This document shows positions 6,253 through 23,662 of a stretch of 25,114 nucleotides of DNA, piece by piece. The notes under the pieces are model-generated. The model ran no database searches and was not told the DNA's origin. It saw only the letters and a program-made list of their open reading frames with translations. The position numbers and the translations under genes were made by a program. How positions within the stretch are numbered: position 1 is the first letter of the stretch; the number at the start of each line of letters is the position of its first letter. The stretch comes from a virus, in IMG/VR virus record IMGVR_UViG_3300025286_000132, positions 1-25,114 of that record; one strand, given 5' to 3'.

Positions 6253-9200
6253 ATGCCCCCACAAGTACGTCGTCGCGGCACGCCACCTCCTGAGGAGGTT
6301 GCACCTACCCTTACACCAGCACAACAGGAAGCGTTGCGGCGGTTACAACAACTGGCCCCGCACATACGCCGGGAAAGTGTCATCGCTACATTCGAACAAG
6401 CCATTCTGGCGAATGATCCGCAGGCTATTGCGGCCATCAATGAGGCAGACCTCAGTACATTGCCACCACCCCCAGTGGAGCTTGATTTACCCGAGCTTGT
6501 GCCTGGGATGAGTACAACCGGAGGTGTGGGTCGAGGGCTTGGCCCAGATTCTGCTAGAGAGCGCCCCTCAGGGGGGATCTTCCAACCGCGTGACCTCTTT
6601 GACCTGGGCTTGGATGTGTTTCCTCGGCTGCAGCAAGGGGTCACGGCGGTAGCTGAGGGGATTCGTCCGGGTGAGGCCCCACCTTCTACGGAAGCGACTG
6701 ATCCCGCAGGAGCGACATTCATGGGGCGGCCTTATTCGCCTCCCTTCAGTGAAATGATCTTCGGGGAAGCTGAGACAGAGGATTCGCTGTTACGGCGCAT
6801 ACTGGGGGCACCGCTACGTCCACGGCCAGCAGACCCAGGCGGCCCCCGAGATTACATGCGGGCAGAAACACTCACCCCGGCAGAGCTTGAGGCAAAACGC
6901 CGAGAGCTGGACCTGCTTGGGCCTAGCGGCAACCCAGCTGCCCGCGCTATTCTTGAAAACCAGATTGCAACAGGCGAAAAGGTGAGTGGTGGGTCATGGA
7001 GTCGAGAGTTCATGGCAGCCCCGCTGGCAGAGAAGGTGAACCTGGCCCGGCATGCGGTGGCTGATGGGCTCATGACCGTCGCGGATTTCCTGAGCCTTGG
7101 GGACGCCTTGGGGGCAGCGGCCTGGTTTGGACGGAAAACGCTGCAGCAAGGTGCAGAGCGTGGGGCGGCAAAGCTTGTAGATGTCGTGACGGGTCCCAGT
7201 CGGTCTGAGCGTGCGGCGGCTGAGGCAGCTGCACGGGCACAGGATGCAACGACAACGACAGGGTTTAATGTACCGGACATCTCAGTAGACCCAACTGCTG
7301 GGGTGACAGGGCAGCAGGTTACGGTCAACGTCGATGTAGTCGATGAGATCCTTGCCAAGGTAGATGACGCTAAGGGGGCTAAGGAGGCTGCTGAGACTGG
7401 ACAGGTTGCAGGGGCCCCTGCACCGCAGCCAGCGCCCACACCCAGCCAGCCAGCGCCCGCACCCAAGGCTTCTCCGGAAGCCCTTGATTTTGTGATGCCT
7501 GAGGGGTTAAGGCGATCCAATCCCCGTTACCGTAATAGCGAGATTGCGTGGAACTCTGACCTGGACAAGGCGCTTTACATTGTCAGGAACAGGACACGGC
7601 TATCGAAGAGTGATGCGAAGTTCATGGATGTGCTGCGGAAGCACTTCCCCGGTGAATCCGATGACGCCATTCGGGCACGTGGCGATGCGGTCCTGGAGCG
7701 CATCAAGGCAACTGGCAACGTCACCGACGAGGATACCCTCTTGCATTACTGGCCCCACATGCCTGAGGTTGCTGCTCCTGCGTCAGCGGCGGCTGACACG
7801 GCCCCACCAACAGCCTCAGTGCCAGAGGAAGTGGCTGGACCCCCACTCAAGCCTGAGACTCCTGAGCCTCCATCGACGGCCCCCACACCGGTAGCCCAGA
7901 CCGCAGATGAGCTAGCTGCTGTCTCGGAACAGGCGGGCCAACTAGCTGACGATCTCACAGTGCAGGAACTACTGGATGCTGTGGACGAGGCAGACCTGGA
8001 CTGGACCAGTGAGGATATTCGAAACATTGCCGAGACAGCGGCCAAGACTAACTTGATTGGGGGTAAGGTTCCGGGCTCAGTCCAGCAAGCGCGTCAGGCC
8101 TTGGTGGATATTGGGGAGGGGTTGCAGCGAGAAGGGCTGCTTGATGATGCCGTCGAGGACACCCTTGCACAGTTTCGTGGTGGCCTTGCGGCCCCTGAGC
8201 CTTCTACCCCAACAACCGCCGCAGTCGTTGGTGATGCTGCTGGAGGCCCACAACCTGCAGCCGCCCGAGAGCCTGAGATTACCAAGGCTTTTATTAGGGG
8301 GCGTGGTTACAAGCAGCGGCTTGAGCAGTTCTTGAATGACTATGCCACCCCAGCCAATCGAGCAGACATCGAAGCGCTGTGGCGGAAAGCCCGTGGGCGG
8401 AGTGCGGGTGCAGACGATGCCCTACACCAGCTGGACCAGATTAAACAACGGGCTGATACAGGGCGTGGGCAGATTGGTGCCGCTGACGAGATTTCAGGAT
8501 TGGGGGAAAGAGTTGCGCCTGGTGCGTTGGCTCCAGGAAAGGCCCAGGTTGCTGCCACCCGTGGCCAGGCGCAGCAGGGGGCAGCTGAAGCAGCTGCGGA
8601 GGCTGAGACGCTTGTCGATGCAGGGGAAGTTGCCGCGACCAGTGCCACCCCAACGATCGGGGGCTCGCGGCGTACGGGACCTGCTGCTGAATTCACCGAG
8701 TCCAGGCATGCTGCAGGGGTTGACCCAGGACGGGTCACAGATCCTGCTGTAGGCGAGAACCTGTTTCTGGGAGGGAGTCAGGAGGCTGAAACCGCGAAGC
8801 GTGCTGCGTTCATTCAGACCTACACCAAGCTTGGACGTGGGCAGTTCTCGGCGGCCGAGGTTGCTTCCCAGGTAGATGACTACATTGCGACGATCAAGAC
8901 CGCAGCACGGTCGTTGCGCGAGGGTAATATTGCGGAGGCCCATACCCAGTACACAAAGATTTTCAACAAGCTGCATGAGACGTTAGATCCCAAGCCTGGG
9001 TACCTTGATCCGGCAGTCACGGAAGCCAGTAAGACTGCGCGCCAACGCACGGGGACACGGTCTAGCCAGCGGGCTGCGCATGTACAGTCCTGGGCCCAGG
9101 ACCCTGCTGGGTACTCACGGGCTGAGCAGCAAGCCATTGATCGCGTCAAGCGGTCCTTGGCTCTGATCCAAGATGAAAGTGGGGCTGCGTTTCATACTGA

Positions 9201-11973
9201 TGACTCCATTGAGGCCTTCATCAGTGAACTGCGGAAGCAGCAAAAGGATCTGGTCACAGATTTAGGTGGGACTGCGCAGGGGGTTGCGTCCCTGACCACG
9301 CCTGTGCACTCTGCCTGGGATGCCCTGGTAGGGTTGGAGTACCGCATTAACCGGACACGGAGCGCGGTGGATGAACTTATCACCGCCTTTCCTGAAGCCA
9401 GCATCCAGCAGAACTCCCTCTACAAGCTCGTCAATAGCTTGAATCTTCTTGGCGAGGGGGCTGAGCGACAGGTGGGCCGATGGGCCAAGGTGTTGGCGGC
9501 TCCTGAGGGTTCACAGCTCGTCCCTGCTGAAGGTGCGCAGGCCTTCGCTAAAGGGCGCAAGGGTCTACGGATTGTGGCTGGGGAAGGCGCTGCGCAGACC
9601 CCGAGTGCCCGTGTCCTGGGAGACTGGCGGGAGGTTGCTAAGGACCTAGCGACCTATGCCCAGATGTCAGACGACATTCTGGACAGTGCGGATAACCAAA
9701 TTCAATTCAACATGTTGCTTGGCATCTTCACAGACCCCAAGATTTCAGAGGGGGCTGCTGCTATGCATGTCATTGGTACTGGGCTTGGGGGTGCCGCAGG
9801 CTGGCATGGAGGTGGGCAGTTGGCTGACGAGCTGGGGCTTGAGGGTGGTGCCCGGTTTGCTTCCCAGGCCACTACTGCCCTGGGAGGTGCTCTCACGGGA
9901 GGCTATGTGCTTCCTCGCGTCCAACGGGGGCTTGTGCCCAAGGGCAAAACGTGGGCCGATCCCAAAACGGGCGAAGCGTTTTTCATGAACTCTATCCTAC
10001 AGAGTCCCCGTTCAATCCTCAAAGCCGCGAGTGGAGCCTTTGGCGGGGCACAGGTGTCTGGGTTTGAGCGTGCGGTGCAAGGCGCTATCGAGTTTGCGCT
10101 GGGGAACCGGGCACAAGGGGCAGCCTTGTACGGGGCAGGCACTGACATCATGGCTGATGCCACGCGGGAGTTGGTACGGCTGGTTCCGGGAGATACACGG
10201 TCCCTGATCAAGCAGTTCTTTGATCTTGACATGAGTACTCCGCAAGGGCGTAGGCAGTTTGAAGGGCTGTTTGGGCACCTGCCTGAGATGCAGACACCAG
10301 AAGGGCGTGCGGCCTTCGGGAAAATGCTTGAGGAGGACCGTATCTCTGGGCGTATGACGAATGCGTTAGTGGGGAAACTTTATCGTTCAAGCGATAACGC
10401 TGCCATCCACATCATGACGCAGGAGCGGCGGGGGGTACCAGGGATTTCGTTTGAGGATGCCCAGAACTTTACCCTGACAGGGAGACCAGTAACTGAAGCA
10501 GGGCAAGGAATGTTGCGTACCTTCTCTCCGCAGGACCTCCCAACAGGGGGCGGCGGGAATCCCTTTACCCGAGGGCTGTCCAATCCCTGGTTGCAGAGTG
10601 GGAAGCGCTTAGTCTCTGCGGTGCCCCGGGTAGGGATTAACATGGCTGAGCAGGGCCTCATGCGGACTGTCGCTCCGATAGCCCAGGCCGGGGAGACACT
10701 CTTCCGGCGGGGACAGGGCTTACCGGCGCTGCCCACAGGGCGTGGCACCTCGCGTCCACTCTATAGTGGGTCCCTCGCTGAAGGGGCCTCAAAGGCGCTG
10801 ACAGGCGGCCTTGGGATCGGGGCAGGTTATGGCCTCAGTGACAAGTTAGATTGGCGTACGCAGCCGCTGGTGACCGCTATGGCAGGCCCGTTGGCGGTGC
10901 CCTTCATGCTCGGGGCTGGGATGCGGGAGGGAGCTATCACGGGGAAGTCCATGCTGGAAGGGATAGGGAATGCCTTCCGAGAGCAGGTGGCTGACGTGGC
11001 CCCTATTGATGTCACGCGCCCGTTGAGTGACCTGGACCCCCAGAAGATTGTGCCCTCCACACTGAATGCCCTGACGCCTGCTATTGCCAAGGATGCGTTA
11101 CGGTGGATGGACCCGGGTGCCCCGCAGGGACGACAAACATCCCCGGCCGCTATCAGGGATGCGTATGCTGGTGGGGAATTGGATGAGGGAGCTGCATGGT
11201 TGACGGGAGGCTGGCCCCCTTACGGTGCCAAGGGTGTGGCTGCCCTGGGACAAAGCCTAATCCCAGCTGGGCCTTGGGGGGCGGGACGTACAGCCTTACC
11301 ACCCAAGCCTGTACCAGCTGTCGACTTGTTTGGGGAGCAGGACTTTGACCCCTTCAAGGCCCCACTTCCTATCCCTTTTTCCGATCGGGACCTGACACGT
11401 GGATGGGGAGAACCCAGTGGGCGTCATACTTTGCACCCTCCTACGCATGATGAACGTGTAGCCCTGGACCGTAAAATTGGTGCGGGGCCTGAGGGGCTCC
11501 CGACTGAAACAGGGTTCATGACTGGGCTGCTCCGGGCCCTTGAAAATATAGGGACCCAGACACTGTTTCCCACCAGTGGGATGCAAGAGGCCTGGACGCC
11601 GTATGGGACCGACCCTGTGCTGCGTGAACCCACACAGTTCGGGGCAGACTATACAGCGGAAGGGGTACGGCCTGTGGCCATGCAGCCTCCGAGCGCCCGC
11701 GTCAATATCACAGACCCAGAGACAGGGTTGGATCGTCCACTGAAAGGGATTTCACCGACTGGCCAGGCGCTGATACGACAGCGTCGGGCAGCGACCCAGA
11801 ATGTTGATCCCTACCTTGATATCCAGTTTGTGTTAAACAATCCTGCGATCTTGGCACAGTATGAGGCACAGCCCACACCCCAAGCCAAGAAGCTCTACCT
11901 CTTGAGTATTCTGGAGGCCCAGCAGCCTGACCCTGTTGGCCCAGCCATTGGGCGTTTGTGGGGTGGGCGGTAG
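6253..11973 (+). CDS. Very large presumed virion/ejection protein (1906 aa)
   Basis: This is the largest gene of the window (5.7 kb), starting 2 bp after the previous stop with a basic N-terminus (MPPQVRRRGTPPP). Low-complexity Ala/Pro/Thr linkers (about 390-415, 505-560, 650-690) separate likely folded modules. The module at about 418-495 (DLDKALYIVRNRTRLSKSD) is compact and charged, and I believe similar segments recur in large phage virion proteins, but cannot confirm this. Residues about 840-1120 are helical. Residues about 1170-1220 (GTGLGGAAGWHGGGQLADEL) and about 1515-1565 are Gly/Ala-rich and hydrophobic and could insert into or cross a membrane. I looked for lytic transglycosylase, peptidase and RNA polymerase motifs and found none that are convincing. 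Size, modularity and position suit a DNA-ejection or internal core protein, which is inference. Confidence 0.75.
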   Translation: MPPQVRRRGTPPPEEVAPTLTPAQQEALRRLQQLAPHIRRESVIATFEQAILANDPQAIAAINEADLSTLPPPPVELDLPELVPGMSTTGGVGRGLGPDSARERPSGGIFQPRDLFDLGLDVFPRLQQGVTAVAEGIRPGEAPPSTEATDPAGATFMGRPYSPPFSEMIFGEAETEDSLLRRILGAPLRPRPADPGGPRDYMRAETLTPAELEAKRRELDLLGPSGNPAARAILENQIATGEKVSGGSWSREFMAAPLAEKVNLARHAVADGLMTVADFLSLGDALGAAAWFGRKTLQQGAERGAAKLVDVVTGPSRSERAAAEAAARAQDATTTTGFNVPDISVDPTAGVTGQQVTVNVDVVDEILAKVDDAKGAKEAAETGQVAGAPAPQPAPTPSQPAPAPKASPEALDFVMPEGLRRSNPRYRNSEIAWNSDLDKALYIVRNRTRLSKSDAKFMDVLRKHFPGESDDAIRARGDAVLERIKATGNVTDEDTLLHYWPHMPEVAAPASAAADTAPPTASVPEEVAGPPLKPETPEPPSTAPTPVAQTADELAAVSEQAGQLADDLTVQELLDAVDEADLDWTSEDIRNIAETAAKTNLIGGKVPGSVQQARQALVDIGEGLQREGLLDDAVEDTLAQFRGGLAAPEPSTPTTAAVVGDAAGGPQPAAAREPEITKAFIRGRGYKQRLEQFLNDYATPANRADIEALWRKARGRSAGADDALHQLDQIKQRADTGRGQIGAADEISGLGERVAPGALAPGKAQVAATRGQAQQGAAEAAAEAETLVDAGEVAATSATPTIGGSRRTGPAAEFTESRHAAGVDPGRVTDPAVGENLFLGGSQEAETAKRAAFIQTYTKLGRGQFSAAEVASQVDDYIATIKTAARSLREGNIAEAHTQYTKIFNKLHETLDPKPGYLDPAVTEASKTARQRTGTRSSQRAAHVQSWAQDPAGYSRAEQQAIDRVKRSLALIQDESGAAFHTDDSIEAFISELRKQQKDLVTDLGGTAQGVASLTTPVHSAWDALVGLEYRINRTRSAVDELITAFPEASIQQNSLYKLVNSLNLLGEGAERQVGRWAKVLAAPEGSQLVPAEGAQAFAKGRKGLRIVAGEGAAQTPSARVLGDWREVAKDLATYAQMSDDILDSADNQIQFNMLLGIFTDPKISEGAAAMHVIGTGLGGAAGWHGGGQLADELGLEGGARFASQATTALGGALTGGYVLPRVQRGLVPKGKTWADPKTGEAFFMNSILQSPRSILKAASGAFGGAQVSGFERAVQGAIEFALGNRAQGAALYGAGTDIMADATRELVRLVPGDTRSLIKQFFDLDMSTPQGRRQFEGLFGHLPEMQTPEGRAAFGKMLEEDRISGRMTNALVGKLYRSSDNAAIHIMTQERRGVPGISFEDAQNFTLTGRPVTEAGQGMLRTFSPQDLPTGGGGNPFTRGLSNPWLQSGKRLVSAVPRVGINMAEQGLMRTVAPIAQAGETLFRRGQGLPALPTGRGTSRPLYSGSLAEGASKALTGGLGIGAGYGLSDKLDWRTQPLVTAMAGPLAVPFMLGAGMREGAITGKSMLEGIGNAFREQVADVAPIDVTRPLSDLDPQKIVPSTLNALTPAIAKDALRWMDPGAPQGRQTSPAAIRDAYAGGELDEGAAWLTGGWPPYGAKGVAALGQSLIPAGPWGAGRTALPPKPVPAVDLFGEQDFDPFKAPLPIPFSDRDLTRGWGEPSGRHTLHPPTHDERVALDRKIGAGPEGLPTETGFMTGLLRALENIGTQTLFPTSGMQEAWTPYGTDPVLREPTQFGADYTAEGVRPVAMQPPSARVNITDPETGLDRPLKGISPTGQALIRQRRAATQNVDPYLDIQFVLNNPAILAQYEAQPTPQAKKLYLLSILEAQQPDPVGPAIGRLWGGR

Positions 11974-12425: not shown

Positions 12426-15146
12426 TTAGTCTCCATAGAGTTTCATTGCGCCCCACGCTGGACCCCACTGAGCCTCGACATCAACGGCAAGGTGTGTGCC
12501 CATGCGCCATTCAGGGGGGAGGGGAAGCCAGGTCACAGGTTGCTCCATGATCTGGCGTACTTTGTTGATGATGTACGGGGCCTCGGCTCGGGGGCATTCC
12601 CCTACCAAGGAGTCGTGGATGAACAGGCGGAGGGATTTGAGGGCACTCGGGGAGTGCTTGGCCACCGCACAGACCGCACGCCGTCCGATCGCAGCGGCTG
12701 CATGTTGTGGGTTGAAGGCCACCAGGGCCTTGGCCGAGGGGCCATAGGTCCAGGTCCAGCTGTCATCCGAGACACGGGTCCAGGACAGCACGCGGAAGTA
12801 CCGGTGAATCATGCCCGAGGGGTTGCGTACCCACCCTGCCCCAGCGGTGATGCCCAGCCCAGGGTCATGCCCACTCTCGGTCCCGTCCACACTGAGGCAC
12901 AGCCCTTGTTGCCAGGTGGTAATCTCTGGGAAGAGTTCATCGTAGAACTGGAAGAAGGCCTTGATGTCCTTGACCGGCACCACCCGGTTGAGTTCCTTGA
13001 GCAGCACCTCTTGTGCCTTGAAGGGGCCCATCATGTAGTGGTGCCCATGCACTAGCCGCTTCCGCACGAAGCGTTCTCTGGGGAACTGCCGCTTGAATTG
13101 TTTGAGGCTGGCCCGCAGGGTGTCATCATCCCACTCCAGCTGGGGCAGGTCAGTAGCTGGAATTTTTTTGTCCAGGTGATGGAGGGCATAGGCGTTGACG
13201 TAGTCGTGTACCCCCATACGGGCCAAGCGAATGAGCTTGGGGCTGCGCGCAAAGTAGCCCACAAGCAGGGCTTCGATGCCGGTGTAGTCCAGCTCCCAGA
13301 ACACGGAGCCCTTCGGGGCCACGAAGATATCCTTGACCAGTCCTTGCAGCCCACCTCCGTGGGGAATTTGTTGCAGGTTGGGGTTCACCATCGAGGTGCG
13401 TAAGGTGTCTGGGTTGTTGGTGATGGTGGGGTGGCACCGTCCATCGGCATGGACCGGGAGTCCACCGACCACCTGCCCCGCATCGAGCTTCCCGATGTAG
13501 GTGCCAGCGAGCTTCTGCACCTCCCGGTAGTCGAGGATGAGGGGGTAGAGTGGGTCGTCAGGGTGACGTAGCAAGAGGGCACGCAAGGCACTCTCATCCG
13601 TGGTGCGCTTCCCCTTGCGTCGAATGGCTTGGTGCTTGTGGAAATCCTGCCAGCGCTGGATGTTCTGCCAGCTGGCAACGAAAGGTTGGGGGACCTCCCA
13701 TTCGTCAGTCGGGATAATGATAGGCTCCAAGCTGAGGCTAGGGTCGTGCCCTAAGCAGGGATGGTGTAGATTTAATTTGCCAGTCTTACCACAGGCAGGA
13801 CAGTGCTTGGCTTCGGTAGCTCCGGTAACCAGATGCCCTGTCGGGAACTTGGCTCGGGCCTTGGCAACCTGCTTGAACCGTTTAGCGGTGCGAAGATTGT
13901 CCGGGATGATGTCCTGAATTTTTGTGTTGAGGGCAGTCAGCTGTCGGTCCAGGGTTTCGGCATGGGTCTGGCGGAGGGCTGCATTGACCGGCATCCCGGC
14001 CTGCTGCATGCGCTGGAACACTGGCTCACACTCCACGATTTGTTCTTGGTAGAGGTCCCACATCCCCACGGCTTTGAGCAGGTCCCATGCCTTGAGGGTG
14101 ATGCGGCGTGCTGCGTCACTGTCGATGGCGTTGTAGTACGACGGGTGCTGGCGGCTCAGGTGCTTCCAGCGTGGCTGATTGTCCAGCAGCAGGGAGGCCG
14201 CAAAGCCCAGGCTCTTGGGTAGGTCAGAGTGCAGCACGTGCCATGCAATCATCCCGTCGTAGACCGTGCCGTTGATGGTGTAGCCTTTGGCGCTCAGGCG
14301 GGGGCAATCGAAGGCGGCGTTCCACACAATCTTTGGGTTTGGGGAGGCCAAGACCGCAGCAATGATGGGTTGGGTACGCCGTGTCACGCGCAGGCTCAAG
14401 GCTTTCCCAGGCCGCGAGGCAAAGCTGATACGTGTGATGGGGCCGGTCGCCTTGAGGTCAAGGGCGTCCTCATCCCTGGCCTTGTCTGAGGTTTCAATGT
14501 CAAAGGCGATAGGGGTGGTGGGGTCACGCAGCTCATGCTGTGTCCACCGTGTGGCTGCACTGATGGTCGGGTCGAGGACATAGGTAGTGGTGGCCCGGTG
14601 ATACCCGGCGGTCGTGATACGCATGGCCAGCTGGAGGTCATGGATGAGGACTGCTTCGAAGTTAGGGTTGCCTCGCAGGATGTAGCTTGGGTGCACCGAG
14701 GGGAGGAGCAGATGGTTACGCCAGTAGGAGACATAGCCTCTGGCATCAATGACAGACCCTTCGGGTTTGAACTGGCGCAGGGCGGTGTTCCCTAGCGGGA
14801 CAATGACCCGAGGGCGGAGGGCTTGAATGGCTGGGTACAGGTGGGTCTTCCAACACTTGGCTAACGCCTTGGGGATGGCAGGAAGATTGATGTCATTATG
14901 GGGTGGGCGGCACCAGAGCGCGTTGGCGAGGGAGAACTGACTGCGCTCAAACCCGGCACGGGCAATGCAGTCATTCAACACTCGACCGGCTGGCCCCACG
15001 AAGGGCCGACCGGCCTGCGCTTCTTCAGCACCGAGGGCCTCGCCGACGAGGAGGACACCAGCGGTGCCCTCCCCATCGAGAGACATAAACCCTTGGCCTG
15101 CGTTATCGAGGGGACACCCTCGACAGGCATCAGGTTTGGTGTGCAC
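12426..15146 (-). CDS. Uracil-DNA glycosylase (family 4-like) fused to family A DNA polymerase with 3'-5' exonuclease
   Basis: The start is GTG, sharing one base with the stop of the upstream gene (TAGTG). Residues 1-180 match family-4 UDG: GEALG at 35-39, GRPFVGPAG at 46-54, HPSYILRGNP at 152-161, and Cys8, Cys11, Cys79 and Cys98 spaced for a 4Fe-4S cluster. Residues 212-350 are a 3'-5' exonuclease with intact motifs: D216 and E218 (FDIET), D280 (NAAFD), and Y338 with D342. The polymerase follows: thumb motif REVQKLAGTY (541-550), NPNLQQIP (588-595) and motif A ELDYTGIEA (618-626, D620). Motif B has R692, K696 and Y704, but His700 stands where E. coli Pol I has Phe762. Motif C is HDS (844-846) where HDE is usual. 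A Cys/His-rich insertion (CPAC at 449-452, H461, H462, C464) looks like a zinc knuckle. It is expected to be the replicative phage polymerase; whether the UDG part is active is unknown. Confidence 0.93.
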   Translation of the reverse strand: MHTKPDACRGCPLDNAGQGFMSLDGEGTAGVLLVGEALGAEEAQAGRPFVGPAGRVLNDCIARAGFERSQFSLANALWCRPPHNDINLPAIPKALAKCWKTHLYPAIQALRPRVIVPLGNTALRQFKPEGSVIDARGYVSYWRNHLLLPSVHPSYILRGNPNFEAVLIHDLQLAMRITTAGYHRATTTYVLDPTISAATRWTQHELRDPTTPIAFDIETSDKARDEDALDLKATGPITRISFASRPGKALSLRVTRRTQPIIAAVLASPNPKIVWNAAFDCPRLSAKGYTINGTVYDGMIAWHVLHSDLPKSLGFAASLLLDNQPRWKHLSRQHPSYYNAIDSDAARRITLKAWDLLKAVGMWDLYQEQIVECEPVFQRMQQAGMPVNAALRQTHAETLDRQLTALNTKIQDIIPDNLRTAKRFKQVAKARAKFPTGHLVTGATEAKHCPACGKTGKLNLHHPCLGHDPSLSLEPIIIPTDEWEVPQPFVASWQNIQRWQDFHKHQAIRRKGKRTTDESALRALLLRHPDDPLYPLILDYREVQKLAGTYIGKLDAGQVVGGLPVHADGRCHPTITNNPDTLRTSMVNPNLQQIPHGGGLQGLVKDIFVAPKGSVFWELDYTGIEALLVGYFARSPKLIRLARMGVHDYVNAYALHHLDKKIPATDLPQLEWDDDTLRASLKQFKRQFPRERFVRKRLVHGHHYMMGPFKAQEVLLKELNRVVPVKDIKAFFQFYDELFPEITTWQQGLCLSVDGTESGHDPGLGITAGAGWVRNPSGMIHRYFRVLSWTRVSDDSWTWTYGPSAKALVAFNPQHAAAAIGRRAVCAVAKHSPSALKSLRLFIHDSLVGECPRAEAPYIINKVRQIMEQPVTWLPLPPEWRMGTHLAVDVEAQWGPAWGAMKLYGD

Positions 15147-19165: not shown

Positions 19166-19534
19166 CTAAGCCCTTCTCGGGGTGGGTGTGTCGCGCTGGC
19201 GAATGTCCCACTCCACGTGGATATGGGTATAGTGTCCGGGGCTGTCGAAAACCACATCGAAGCCCAGTTCAAGATTTGATTTCAGGTAATCGGACAGGCT
19301 TTTCATGACCTGCTTGCTGTTACGTGCCTGCCCAAGCTGTACTTGGAAGTCCACGGCTCGGTTCTTATAGTGGAGGCTCTTCTCCGAGTGGGCGTGGTCA
19401 TTCATGCTGGTGATGTGGACATCGTGGCCGTGGCGGGCGCTCCAGACCACGACCAGATTCAGCAACCGCACGATGGGGTCCTCCAAGAACCCAACACGCA
19501 CGGGGTGACCGTTCAATCCACTGAAGACAATCAT
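19166..19534 (-). CDS. M15-type peptidase, candidate endolysin (122 aa)
   Basis: Residues 53-62 (SLHYKNRAVD) match the SxHxxxxAxD zinc-binding pattern of the M15/Hedgehog-fold DD-peptidases, with ligands His55 and Asp62. GHYTHIHVEWD at 100-110 supplies the HxH (His104, His106) and the following Glu. These enzymes cleave D-Ala or L-Ala-D-Glu bonds in peptidoglycan, and small single-domain forms (about 120-170 aa) are common phage endolysins. The ATG at 19534 overlaps the stop of the preceding coiled-coil gene (ATGA), with GGAGGAGGGG upstream. No signal peptide or cell-wall binding domain is present, so export would need a holin; candidates are at 11976 and 12424. At 122 residues it is near the lower limit for the family. 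Confidence 0.8.
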   Translation of the reverse strand: MIVFSGLNGHPVRVGFLEDPIVRLLNLVVVWSARHGHDVHITSMNDHAHSEKSLHYKNRAVDFQVQLGQARNSKQVMKSLSDYLKSNLELGFDVVFDSPGHYTHIHVEWDIRQRDTPTPRRA

Positions 19535-20811: not shown

Positions 20812-21249
20812 TTATTTCCCTTCCCACATGGCGAGGAGTTTCGCCAATGTGACTTCGATATTCTCAAGGCTCTTGAGGATGTGGTTCTGCACAGTCGAGG
20901 GTTCTCCGAGGTCGATCATCGCAGGGGGTGGGGCAGCCTTGGGCTGTGCGCTTCTGGGACCCGGCACCTCCCGGACGTCAAGGCCCGTAGGGTGTGCGGC
21001 TCGACGGGTGCTTGCTTCCAACGCAGCCTCGCGTCGCTTGGCTGCTTCAGCCTGCTTCCGTAGCCGGGCTGCCGAAACCTCTTGCCGTGCCGCAGCCAAG
21101 GCCTGCACCTCACTGAGGAGGACATACATATGTGCCCGCTTCTGGGCTTGGTGCACAGACTTGAGACGGCCATCGTTGACCATCCCACGGGCTGCCGAGA
21201 TGGTGATCCCGAGGATGTGTGCGGCGTCTCCCATTTTGATGTAAGGCAT
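20812..21249 (-). CDS. HTH DNA-binding protein with coiled-coil (145 aa)
   Basis: Residues about 4-45 resemble an excisionase/MerR-type helix-turn-helix: MGDAAHILGITISAARGM followed by VNDGRLKSV and a small beta wing ending in YVLLSEVQ. A long Ala/Arg/Lys helix (about 48-80) and a Pro-rich linker follow, then a C-terminal helix (NHILKSLENIEVTLAKLLAM) that may oligomerise. ATG 21249 has AGGA five bases upstream. Such proteins bind DNA as regulators or origin factors. This is the only clear small DNA-binding regulator in the window and is therefore a candidate to bind the heptamer array about 0.8 kb downstream or the dyad at 17864, which is inference. An excisionase is less likely because no integrase is seen. 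Confidence 0.7.
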   Translation of the reverse strand: MPYIKMGDAAHILGITISAARGMVNDGRLKSVHQAQKRAHMYVLLSEVQALAAARQEVSAARLRKQAEAAKRREAALEASTRRAAHPTGLDVREVPGPRSAQPKAAPPPAMIDLGEPSTVQNHILKSLENIEVTLAKLLAMWEGK

Positions 21250-21270: not shown

Positions 21271-22149
21271 TTAGACAACAATCAGGGTGTCCGTTGCGTC
21301 GACAGCCTTGGGGTCCTCCCCGCCCAAGGTCATGTCTACAGGGGTGGTGATGGTGCCTTGGCGTGTGGTCCAGTAGCTCGGGGTGGTCCAGTAATCTGAG
21401 GTGGCACGCAGCACCCCTTTGATGAGGGCCAGGGCTTGGGTGCGGGCACTGAGGTGGGTGCCGTCCTTGCTGCGTCCCTCCTCCGCCATCGGACAGACCC
21501 GCACTTCCAAGGTGCCGTGCTGCTCAAAGGCACTGTAGTTCACCGCCAGGTACCGACTCCAGCGGTCATTGATGCGGTTGGGTCGACAGTAGGCATCGAC
21601 CTCGTCGCTCGATCGGCCCTCTCGGAGGCGGTTCTCCAGCCAGTACTGGGTCATTGAGGTGCAGCCCTCGCCGACCTCCCGTAGGGTGTGGCGCAGATGC
21701 CCCCAGTAGTTCGGGTCGAAGCTGAAGTCATGCAACCCTTGGGAGCAGCCGAGGTGGACGTGCATTCCCGTGCGGGCATCGACCCCGTCAGGGTAGGAGC
21801 GGTGCACCCATCCCTTCAAGGCTGACCATGACTGGAGGATGGGTGACGCCGCTTCGCCAGCGATGTAGTCATCATCACTGAAGGTCGACCCATCACACTC
21901 AACGGAGCCATCGTACTTGAGGTCACGATTGTTCCGCTCTTCGTGGTCGTCGGCATCGGTGCTTGGATAGTGCAGGTCGTAGCAGTCACAGCAGTAGTCC
22001 CAGTCCCCATGCTCATTCTGCACACAGTACTCACAGTCCTCCGGGTCTGGAGGGTCGGGCAGGTCCACACCCAGCCGTTCCCAATACCCTTCAAGCTCGA
22101 CGCCTACGGTGGTGATACCAGCCGGGAACGATTCGATTGTCTGGGGCAT
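21271..22149 (-). CDS. Amidoligase-family enzyme (glutamine-synthetase-like fold) with zinc-ribbon insertion (292 aa)
   Basis: The protein carries the ordered motifs of the Amidoligase_2 family: GVELEG at 16-21, DGSVE at 80-84, GEAASP at 98-103, GMHVHLG at 128-134, RYLAVN at 199-204 and GTLEVRV at 212-218. The family is predicted to use ATP to join a carboxylate to an amine, giving amides or peptide-like bonds. Between the first and second motif a Cys-rich insertion (CEYC at 39-42, CCDC at 53-56) with many acidic residues looks like a zinc ribbon. ATG 22149 has AAGGAG overlapping the stop of the amidotransferase gene upstream, so the two are coupled. The partner can supply ammonia from glutamine. 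The substrate (host protein, cell-wall peptide, small metabolite or phage protein) cannot be read from sequence. Confidence 0.83.
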   Translation of the reverse strand: MPQTIESFPAGITTVGVELEGYWERLGVDLPDPPDPEDCEYCVQNEHGDWDYCCDCYDLHYPSTDADDHEERNNRDLKYDGSVECDGSTFSDDDYIAGEAASPILQSWSALKGWVHRSYPDGVDARTGMHVHLGCSQGLHDFSFDPNYWGHLRHTLREVGEGCTSMTQYWLENRLREGRSSDEVDAYCRPNRINDRWSRYLAVNYSAFEQHGTLEVRVCPMAEEGRSKDGTHLSARTQALALIKGVLRATSDYWTTPSYWTTRQGTITTPVDMTLGGEDPKAVDATDTLIVV

Positions 22150-22152
22150 CAG

Positions 22153-23049
22153 TTACTCCTTGGATGGGGTGAGTTCAAGGTCCATGGGACAGGCGAAGAC
22201 ATCAAACTCGACAGCGCACTCTTCGCAGACGACCTGCCCGTCGACGGTGCAATCATAGCCATCACCTGTGGTCATGACCTCTTCCGAGCAGCCAGCACAG
22301 CGCATGACCACGGAATCACTGGTGTAGAAGTCCTCGTCTGGGTCACCGGCAGACCCAGCAGGGTAGTGGTAGCCCACGAAGTGATCCCCGTAGGGGTCAG
22401 CTCGGGTGGGCAGCAGGGGTTGACGCTTGACCCCGGTCGGGGACCAGAGGTGCCCGCCCCAGTAGTGGTCAGCGTGGGTCCAACAGTGGTGCAGGTTGCT
22501 GTAGTAGCAGCCCGTGGTGGTGTCATCTTCCCCGTCACCCTCACTCCATGTGCCGTAGCGGGTGATACCTTCCGGGGTGAAGAGTGCCAGCTTCCCTGCT
22601 TGGGTAGCGAGTTGGGCAGCCACACCCTCACGCTCGGCCTGCCCTTCACGCCACAGCACATAGGCCATGATGCGGGTGTCGGACACAGGGCCTCGGAGCT
22701 TGGCACGCCGTTCAAACTGGGCGTGCTGGTTCCAGACCCCGTTGTGGAACAGGAGTTCTCGGGCCTGTCCTTGCAGGGTGATGCCCACCTGACGGCTGAC
22801 CGGGAAGGGATGGCACAGCTGTCGGGAAATCCCTCCGTGGGTGGCGAAGCGGAAGTGCACCACGAAGGGGAGCGGGAGGGTCGGGATGAGGGCTTGGGCT
22901 TCCTCCACGGTGAGGCCCTTCTCCCACGTGACCAGCCGATCGGCAGGCTGTTGGTACGCCACCCCGATACCATCACTGTTGCTCAAGTGGGCGGCATCGA
23001 CTTCAGTGGCAGACGGACGGGCAGAATCTGCGATGATGATTAAGCACAT
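22153..23049 (-). CDS. Class II (Ntn) glutamine amidotransferase with C-terminal zinc ribbon (298 aa)
   Basis: The ATG at 23049 is chosen because it places the nucleophile Cys at residue 2 (MCLIII), as class II amidotransferases require after Met removal, and GAGGAGG lies five bases upstream. The longer frame to 23142 would overlap the upstream gene. Conserved motifs are NSDGIG (24-29), HFRFATHG (65-72), HNG (102-104) and SDTR with Asp124. These form the glutaminase site that releases ammonia from glutamine. After about residue 175 the protein departs from the family: a Cys/His/Trp-rich stretch (HHCWTHADHYWGGH) and a C-terminal CxxC pair (Cys251/254 and Cys275/278) look like zinc-binding modules. 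No synthase domain is fused, so the amidoligase next door is the natural acceptor partner. Confidence 0.88.
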   Translation of the reverse strand: MCLIIIADSARPSATEVDAAHLSNSDGIGVAYQQPADRLVTWEKGLTVEEAQALIPTLPLPFVVHFRFATHGGISRQLCHPFPVSRQVGITLQGQARELLFHNGVWNQHAQFERRAKLRGPVSDTRIMAYVLWREGQAEREGVAAQLATQAGKLALFTPEGITRYGTWSEGDGEDDTTTGCYYSNLHHCWTHADHYWGGHLWSPTGVKRQPLLPTRADPYGDHFVGYHYPAGSAGDPDEDFYTSDSVVMRCAGCSEEVMTTGDGYDCTVDGQVVCEECAVEFDVFACPMDLELTPSKE

Positions 23050-23059
23050 AGATACCTCC

Positions 23060-23662
23060 TCAGGTAGCGAGCTGGATGGTGGTGCGGCTGGTCTTAGGCC
23101 ACGGAATATGCTGCTGCCGCAAGCTGCCAAAGGCTCCGGCAAGGTTGGCTTCGACGAGGGGTTTCTCTATCGCACCCCGCTGCCCATCGTCGAGGGACCG
23201 TGGGGTGAAGAGACTCTCGGGCAGTCTGGTGCGGAGTTGGATACGGACCTTCCGCTCTAGGGTATTGACCGCCATACGGATGAAGGCCAAGTGCCGTGTC
23301 CACTCATGGTCAAAGCGGAGTGAGGGTGTCGTGTCCCGGCTGACCACATCCGAGAGGTGCAGGTTCCACGCCTTGTGTCCTTCAGTGTCACCCTCGGTGT
23401 TAAGGTCAAGCGGGGTGATGGTCTGGACATCCTGACTGGCGGTGCGGATATCCATGAAGGTGCTGGTGTTGGTCCCGTTGTCGACGCTGTACTCAGCTTG
23501 GTGGAACAGCCACTCTCGCACTGAGGCATGCACCTTGAAGGTCAGGTCGACCGCTTCGTAGCGTGACACGTCTTCAGCGAGGTCATAGGGAGAGATGCGG
23601 GTGATGGTGTAGCTACACAGGGGTTCACCCTTGGGAATGTGAATGACTCGTCTGTCTGGCAT
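23060..23662 (-). CDS. Unknown protein in the amidoligase operon (200 aa)
   Basis: ATG 23662 has GAGGAGGG five bases upstream. The first half is beta-rich (VDLTFKVHASVREWLFHQAE, then TFMDIRT), and the second half includes a helix with aromatic and basic residues (FDHEWTRHLAFIRMAVNTLE) and a Ser/Thr/Arg-rich tail. No signal peptide, membrane helix, Cys cluster or known motif is seen. It ends 10 bp before the amidotransferase start and is in the same direction, so it may be the substrate, carrier or regulator of the amidoligase system, or simply a co-transcribed phage protein. The family is not recognised. Confidence 0.65.
   Translation of the reverse strand: MPDRRVIHIPKGEPLCSYTITRISPYDLAEDVSRYEAVDLTFKVHASVREWLFHQAEYSVDNGTNTSTFMDIRTASQDVQTITPLDLNTEGDTEGHKAWNLHLSDVVSRDTTPSLRFDHEWTRHLAFIRMAVNTLERKVRIQLRTRLPESLFTPRSLDDGQRGAIEKPLVEANLAGAFGSLRQQHIPWPKTSRTTIQLAT

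Follow-up and report, generated by a model that had tools for sequence, protein, structure and literature searches.

A divergent phage amidoligase/glutamine amidotransferase gene pair with cysteine clusters in both proteins

The right part of a 25,114-base virus record (the window, i.e., the whole stretch of DNA analysed, which is a fragment of 25 kb) carries two adjacent genes, for which an earlier note had proposed an amidoligase and a class II glutamine amidotransferase (GAT). The locus raises the questions of whether the two enzymes had been correctly recognized, whether their adjacency is more than accidental and what such a pair might do for a phage.

Gene layout and identity of the two enzymes

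Both open reading frames were found on the minus strand exactly where the earlier note had placed them, with 3 nt between the GAT stop codon and the ligase ATG, and every motif it had listed was located: GVELEG, GMHVHLG and GTLEVRV in the ligase, and MCLIII (the beginning of the protein), HFRFATHG and HNG in the GAT. The features of the locus are as follows.

20812..21249, minus strand: gene of an HTH_17-like protein downstream of the ligase, same array (PF12728 E 5.3e-4, below its cut-off)
21271..22149, minus strand: GS-fold amidoligase (Amidoligase_2-like), 292 aa (clade hhalign, AF2, VIA-align)
21982..22035, minus strand: zinc-ribbon-like insert in the ligase domain, C39-x2-C42-x10-C53-x2-C56, between the GVELEG and DGS motifs (conserved Cys)
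22153..23049, minus strand: class II GAT, 298 aa, Ntn glutaminase domain at residues ~1-190, C-terminal Cys cluster (family profile, AF2 and Foldseek)
22156..22161, minus strand: AAGGAG, Shine-Dalgarno-like site of the amidoligase gene, abutting the GAT stop codon at 22153-22155 (sequence)
22216..22299, minus strand: C-terminal zinc-ribbon-like element of the GAT, C251-x2-C254...C275-x2-C278 (conserved Cys, weak profile matches)
23060..23662, minus strand: g200, 200 aa, no known family, upstream of the GAT and linked to the pair in the window lineage (kin contigs)

The pair belongs to a minus-strand array in the right part of the window, which includes g70, g98, g82, g143, g200, GAT, ligase, the HTH-like gene (kept in the close kin L003), a DUF932-like gene and others and then reaches an exonuclease-like gene and a family A DNA polymerase. 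The ribosome site of the GAT gene, GAGGAGG, overlaps the stop codon of the preceding g200, which, together with the similar arrangement at the GAT-ligase junction, makes translational coupling of all three genes plausible. Both reading frames are preserved in relatives at 38–56% identity and, since dozens of unrelated viral contigs show the adjacency as well, the pairing is more than a matter of chance. The polymerase (12426-15146, minus strand), conserved across all related contigs, has an N-terminal domain of the uracil-DNA-glycosylase (UDG) superfamily (PF03167 E 2e-24; DNA_pol_A E 8e-23). A small protein encoded at 19166-19534 on the minus strand (SLHYKNRAVDF...HIHVEW) gave no Pfam match and resembles by eye the core of an M15-type cell-wall peptidase; its gene occurs in most kin contigs reaching that far, with or without the GAT/ligase pair.

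The single GAT sequence remained below every Pfam cut-off (best PF13230, GATase_4, E 0.17) and matched PHROG 25883 at 2e-5. The profile of 55 family members matched the GlmS glutaminase domain (1xff) at 2.1e-12, and PurF as well, with HFRxATHG, HNG and SDT aligned to the glutaminase motifs of GlmS. The AlphaFold2 model was confident over residues 1–190 (domain pLDDT ~90–98) and corresponded to 1xff with a Foldseek E of 2.7e-7 and a probability of 1.00, indicating the Ntn-hydrolase fold. A cysteine directly follows the initiator methionine in all 55 aligned sequences and, apart from C2, the residues R67, N103, G104 and D124 are likewise invariant (55/55); these are equivalent to the nucleophile (C2), the glutamine carboxylate contact (R67), the oxyanion hole (N103-G104) and the amino contact (D124) of GlmS, with R73 and D123 (glutamine binding) and N98-G99 (oxyanion) as the counterparts there. 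The invariance of the residues recognizing the alpha groups of glutamine points to free glutamine as the probable substrate. These results support a class II (N-terminal Cys, Ntn) glutamine amidotransferase with predicted glutaminase activity, in agreement with the earlier description of a stand-alone glutaminase with Cys at position 2. While sharing the Ntn fold and the glutaminase residues with GlmS (1xff) and PurF, the protein has no fused synthase domain, its partner ligase being a separate gene, and differs further by its C-terminal Cys cluster. Distant relatives are present in annotated phages, including the 'glutamine amidotransferase' genes of Marvin-type mycobacteriophages; a single-sequence tblastn search of annotated phages returned nothing at 1e-5.

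The single ligase sequence had no match in Pfam, NCBIfam or PADLOC, and its profile found nothing significant among solved structures, where YbdK and glutamine synthetase appeared only at E 0.5–0.8. Direct hhalign comparison of the five-member window clade with 15 PF12224 (Amidoligase_2) members, none of them from this clade, gave a probability of 97 and an E of 8.7e-11. The AF2 model (pLDDT 84.8, pTM 0.78) resembled glutamine synthetases and YbdK, weakly so in Foldseek (best E 0.018, above 1e-3); in VIA-align the best 50 rows were all chains of the GS/GCS superfamily (Z 8.2–9.4 over 167–197 residues), the top Z of 9.4 belonging to a glutamine synthetase. Residues G16, E18, E20, E99, H130 and E215 are invariant in 57/57 sequences and R217 is present in 56 of them, so that the acidic, His and Arg residues expected at the metal/ATP site are in place, and the order of the motifs, G-x-E-x-E, GMHxH and E-x-R, is that of glutamine synthetase. 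The frame at 21271-22149 is thus supported as a GS-fold amidoligase of the Amidoligase_2 type, for which ATP-dependent amide ligation is predicted from sequence and model. It shares the catalytic-domain fold and the ExE / HxH / ExR order with glutamine synthetase and GCS2 (YbdK), while being shorter, single-domain, only ~10–15% identical, furnished with a Cys-rich insert and genetically tied to a GAT. The amidoligase fold suggested earlier was therefore recovered by the clade profile and the structural alignment, the single sequence failing the Pfam cut-off, and catalytic residues showed no loss among homologues, being invariant in 55/55 GAT and 57/57 ligase sequences. Since each window protein on its own misses the Pfam cut-offs, both enzymes were assigned through family profiles, residues and folds.

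Linkage of the two genes in related and unrelated phages

Scanning of viral contigs with the GAT alignment as bait produced 80 loci, 77 of which were not near copies of the window. A GS-fold ligase gene was present on the same strand within 4 kb, usually adjacent, in 72 of these 77 loci, and on the opposite strand in none. It was an Amidoligase_2-like frame in 70 loci (upstream of the GAT in 68 and downstream in 2, most within 100 bases), while L029 and L032 had a phiEco32-type COOH-NH2_lig directly upstream instead (E 4.4e-12 and 9.4e-15); in these two, one ligase family has been swapped for another and the GAT retained. Four of the remaining five loci (L016, L039, L081 and L092) were interrupted by a contig end. 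The in-house ligase HMM was in its final form trained on GAT neighbourhoods, so that independent support comes from the clade hhalign comparison and from PF12224, which was found in 27 of 49 survey records (25 over cut-off) against 0 of 14 control genomes. Pairwise distances of ligases and GATs correlated with a rho of 0.42, compared with a maximum of 0.19 in 2000 permutations, and neighbour clustering revealed no third gene common to the loci beyond subsets. With 72 of 77 loci paired and the exceptions mostly cut by contig ends, the linkage foreseen in the earlier note proved consistent: the partner is nearly obligatory wherever a GAT of this type occurs, and the two genes form a conserved, accessory and mobile module. 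Chance pairing of ligase and GAT, also considered, was rejected by the same survey.

Several loci had a deviating composition. In L046 (3920-6831) a gene of the same GAT family neighbours GroES- and GroEL-like genes, and the surrounding 4 kb contain no ligase. L042 and L065 each contain two ligase and two GAT genes, in line with a coupling of the two enzymes, and L036 has two GATs. In L012 (1840-3579), a Bifidobacterium phage, the ligase is apparently split by a frame change between the GHIHV and TIELR motifs, either by a programmed shift or by sequencing error, with only the 3' part annotated, from a GTG start.

The accessory nature of the pair was evident from the closer relatives. The order g200-GAT-ligase was found at the same place in L099 and L105, detected by their polymerase, and in L111 and L113, detected via the GAT, while L103 and L104, which share the polymerase-exonuclease-ATPase block (64–70% identity for polymerase and ATPase), had neither the pair nor a detectable g200 in 8–10 kb upstream. 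Ligase and GAT are therefore present or absent together and are gained or lost as a unit. The g200 gene directly precedes the GAT in L003, L016, L017, L099, L105, L111 and L113 (25–89% identity), and its product showed no homology to the ligase. In another lineage (L021-L028) the pair sits in the head-gene region with the major head protein downstream. A scan of bacterial and archaeal genomes for the window clade yielded 58 matched stretches, none of them a relative, and thereby no cellular source or host. In L103, a phage without the pair, a 467-aa protein (559-1962) is encoded upstream of the polymerase at a comparable distance; it matched PHROG 1314 (E 1.4e-20), named HNH endonuclease there, and has by eye a metallopeptidase-like HEATH motif.

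Amidoligase/GAT pairing has already been described in phages. UFV-P2/LUZ24-like phages have amidoligase, GAT, ATP-grasp and AIG2 genes (PMC3890496) and phage tf has the pairing (PMC3517423); PMC5498523 describes an amidoligase/GAT cassette in RIO-1-like podoviruses, and PMC10580990 the pairing in OM43 phages, citing Marvin too. With phiEco32, LUZ24, RIO-1, Marvin and the OM43 phages as precedents, the window pair is a new, divergent member of a known group. It has in common with the phiEco32/LUZ24/RIO-1-type cassettes, Aeromonas phage LAh_9, Marvin gp105/gp106 and the OM43 phages the same-strand adjacency of a GS-fold ligase and a class II GAT, and with the LAh_9 and Marvin relatives also the presence of Cys clusters; in contrast to known pairs, its gene order is inverted (GAT first), the insert lies inside the ligase domain, g200 is linked and both proteins fall below Pfam thresholds. 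The amidoligase beside a class II GAT, a feature of the phiEco32/RIO-1-type cassette, is present in the window and its kin; COOH-NH2_lig (PF14395), ATP-grasp and GGACT were not seen among the Pfam-scanned proteins of the 25-kb window, nor PF14395 and GGACT in the related contigs, all of them fragments (a positive control was detected), and the pair is not assigned to the full cassette. The PADLOC anti-phage defence catalogue had no match for GAT, ligase or g200.

Cysteine clusters in both proteins

Less expected in the window, besides the inverted gene order and the linked g200, were the Cys clusters in both proteins, which were not brought up for this enzyme pair in the literature searched. 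In the ligase, C39, C42, C53 and C56 are invariant in the five clade members (39–88% identity), and as an insert the cluster is missing from most of the distant relatives; in the GAT, C251, C254, C275 and C278 are invariant in six clade members (45–93% identity), the cluster weakly matching PHROG 4331/10625 and FYVE. Ligases of other lineages have an N-terminal array with up to eleven CxxC motifs, and in L029 matches to LIM and double-zinc-ribbon domains are fused to the COOH-NH2_lig. When loci with at least two CxxC motifs in a protein were counted, 44 of 66 had them in the ligase or in the tail of the GAT, 14 in both and 22 in neither. The clusters are predicted to bind metal; being absent from both proteins in 22 loci, they are not essential.

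Possible role of the pair

From the fold and the conserved residues, the N-terminal cysteine of the GAT would hydrolyse free L-glutamine to ammonia, and the GS-fold ligase would activate a carboxylate with ATP-Mg to an acyl phosphate, on which the attack of ammonia would produce an amide. Glutamine synthetase proceeds in this way, except that here a partner subunit would provide the ammonia. More weakly, the zinc-ribbon-like elements may contact one another or dock a macromolecular substrate (peptide or protein). A further conjecture, drawn from publications on related phages, is that the product, i.e., a cell-wall precursor or a host or virion protein that has been modified, might help the phage, e.g., by excluding competitors. 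We consider it probable (about 0.6) that the two genes form an accessory module with which the phage would make amides from a carboxylate in a glutamine-dependent manner, with the activity predicted from residues and folds and the two proteins as a putative complex. Glutamine-dependent tagging or amidation of a substrate, as proposed in the earlier note, fits with it; that interpretation is supported as regards the identity of the enzymes and their functional link, while the prior phage descriptions, the zinc-ribbon-like clusters and the upstream gene had been overlooked. Points against the module are the ligase Foldseek E above 1e-3, the failure of both proteins alone at the Pfam cut-offs and the GAT without a nearby ligase in L046.

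A specific version of this explanation would be cell-wall modification for superinfection exclusion, in which D-Glu or diaminopimelate of peptidoglycan precursors would be amidated by the pair, a reaction that hosts carry out with MurT/GatD and AsnB-type enzymes. PMC3267633 describes host stem-peptide amidation with matching chemistry, and the idea has been put forward as a conjecture for phiEco32/RIO-1-type cassettes (PMC5498523, PMC10580990, PMC11318856). In the window fragment, moreover, no ATP-grasp, second ligase or cyclotransferase gene like those of the cassette was seen, zinc ribbons would not be expected for a small precursor, and the nearby M15-like peptidase gene, which kin lacking the pair have too, provides no special link to it, which leaves this version possible and rather doubtful. 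GS-fold ligases are also able to use other amines than ammonia, so that the GAT could act on the product of the ligase instead of supplying it. In this alternative, the ligase would couple an amine (peptide, lysine or polyamine) to a carboxylate, either gamma-glutamyl or other, and such linkages would be removed or trimmed by the GAT, accompanied in relatives by GGACT-type enzymes. The amine use by the GS-fold relatives GCS (YbdK) and Pup ligase and the fusion of the GAT in several relatives to a GGACT gamma-glutamyl-amine cyclotransferase domain, an enzyme type opening gamma-glutamyl-amine bonds, are in line with this. We nevertheless regard it as unlikely, as GGACT occurred in only 7 of 46 records, with none seen in the window clade, and the invariant residues for the free alpha groups point to free glutamine.

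Hypermodification of DNA bases, through amidation of a modified pyrimidine or attachment of an amino acid to it, is disfavoured and seems very improbable. A UDG-type domain, such as the phage polymerase carries, hints at unusual bases in some phages and zinc ribbons can bind nucleic acid, whereas the scanned window proteins included no base-modification enzyme, thymidylate-synthase-family genes were present in only 1 of 45 related records and the pair lies among head genes in one lineage. Returning to amide synthesis, the zinc ribbons (in ligase, GAT or both) might mark a phage system amidating or conjugating a macromolecule (host or virion protein) with glutamine nitrogen, with an exchangeable ligase (Amidoligase_2 or COOH-NH2_lig, both of which have Cys clusters in certain phages) and a constant GAT. 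This proposal is speculative and we do not expect it to hold; if true, it would represent a viral post-translational amidation machine.

The literature searched contained no substrate for phage amidoligase/GAT pairs, and the window pair is of interest as part of an unsolved family rather than as a new kind. Such pairs are widespread in very different phages, cultured ones included (Marvin, LAh_9, Bifidobacterium phages), and the survey provides residues for mutation, a zinc-ribbon lead on the type of substrate and phages in which deletion tests are feasible. Elsewhere in the window, a 1906-aa protein (6253-11973, plus strand) with no PHROG match adjoins several family-less proline-rich proteins and evolves fast, with 25–31% identity in kin.
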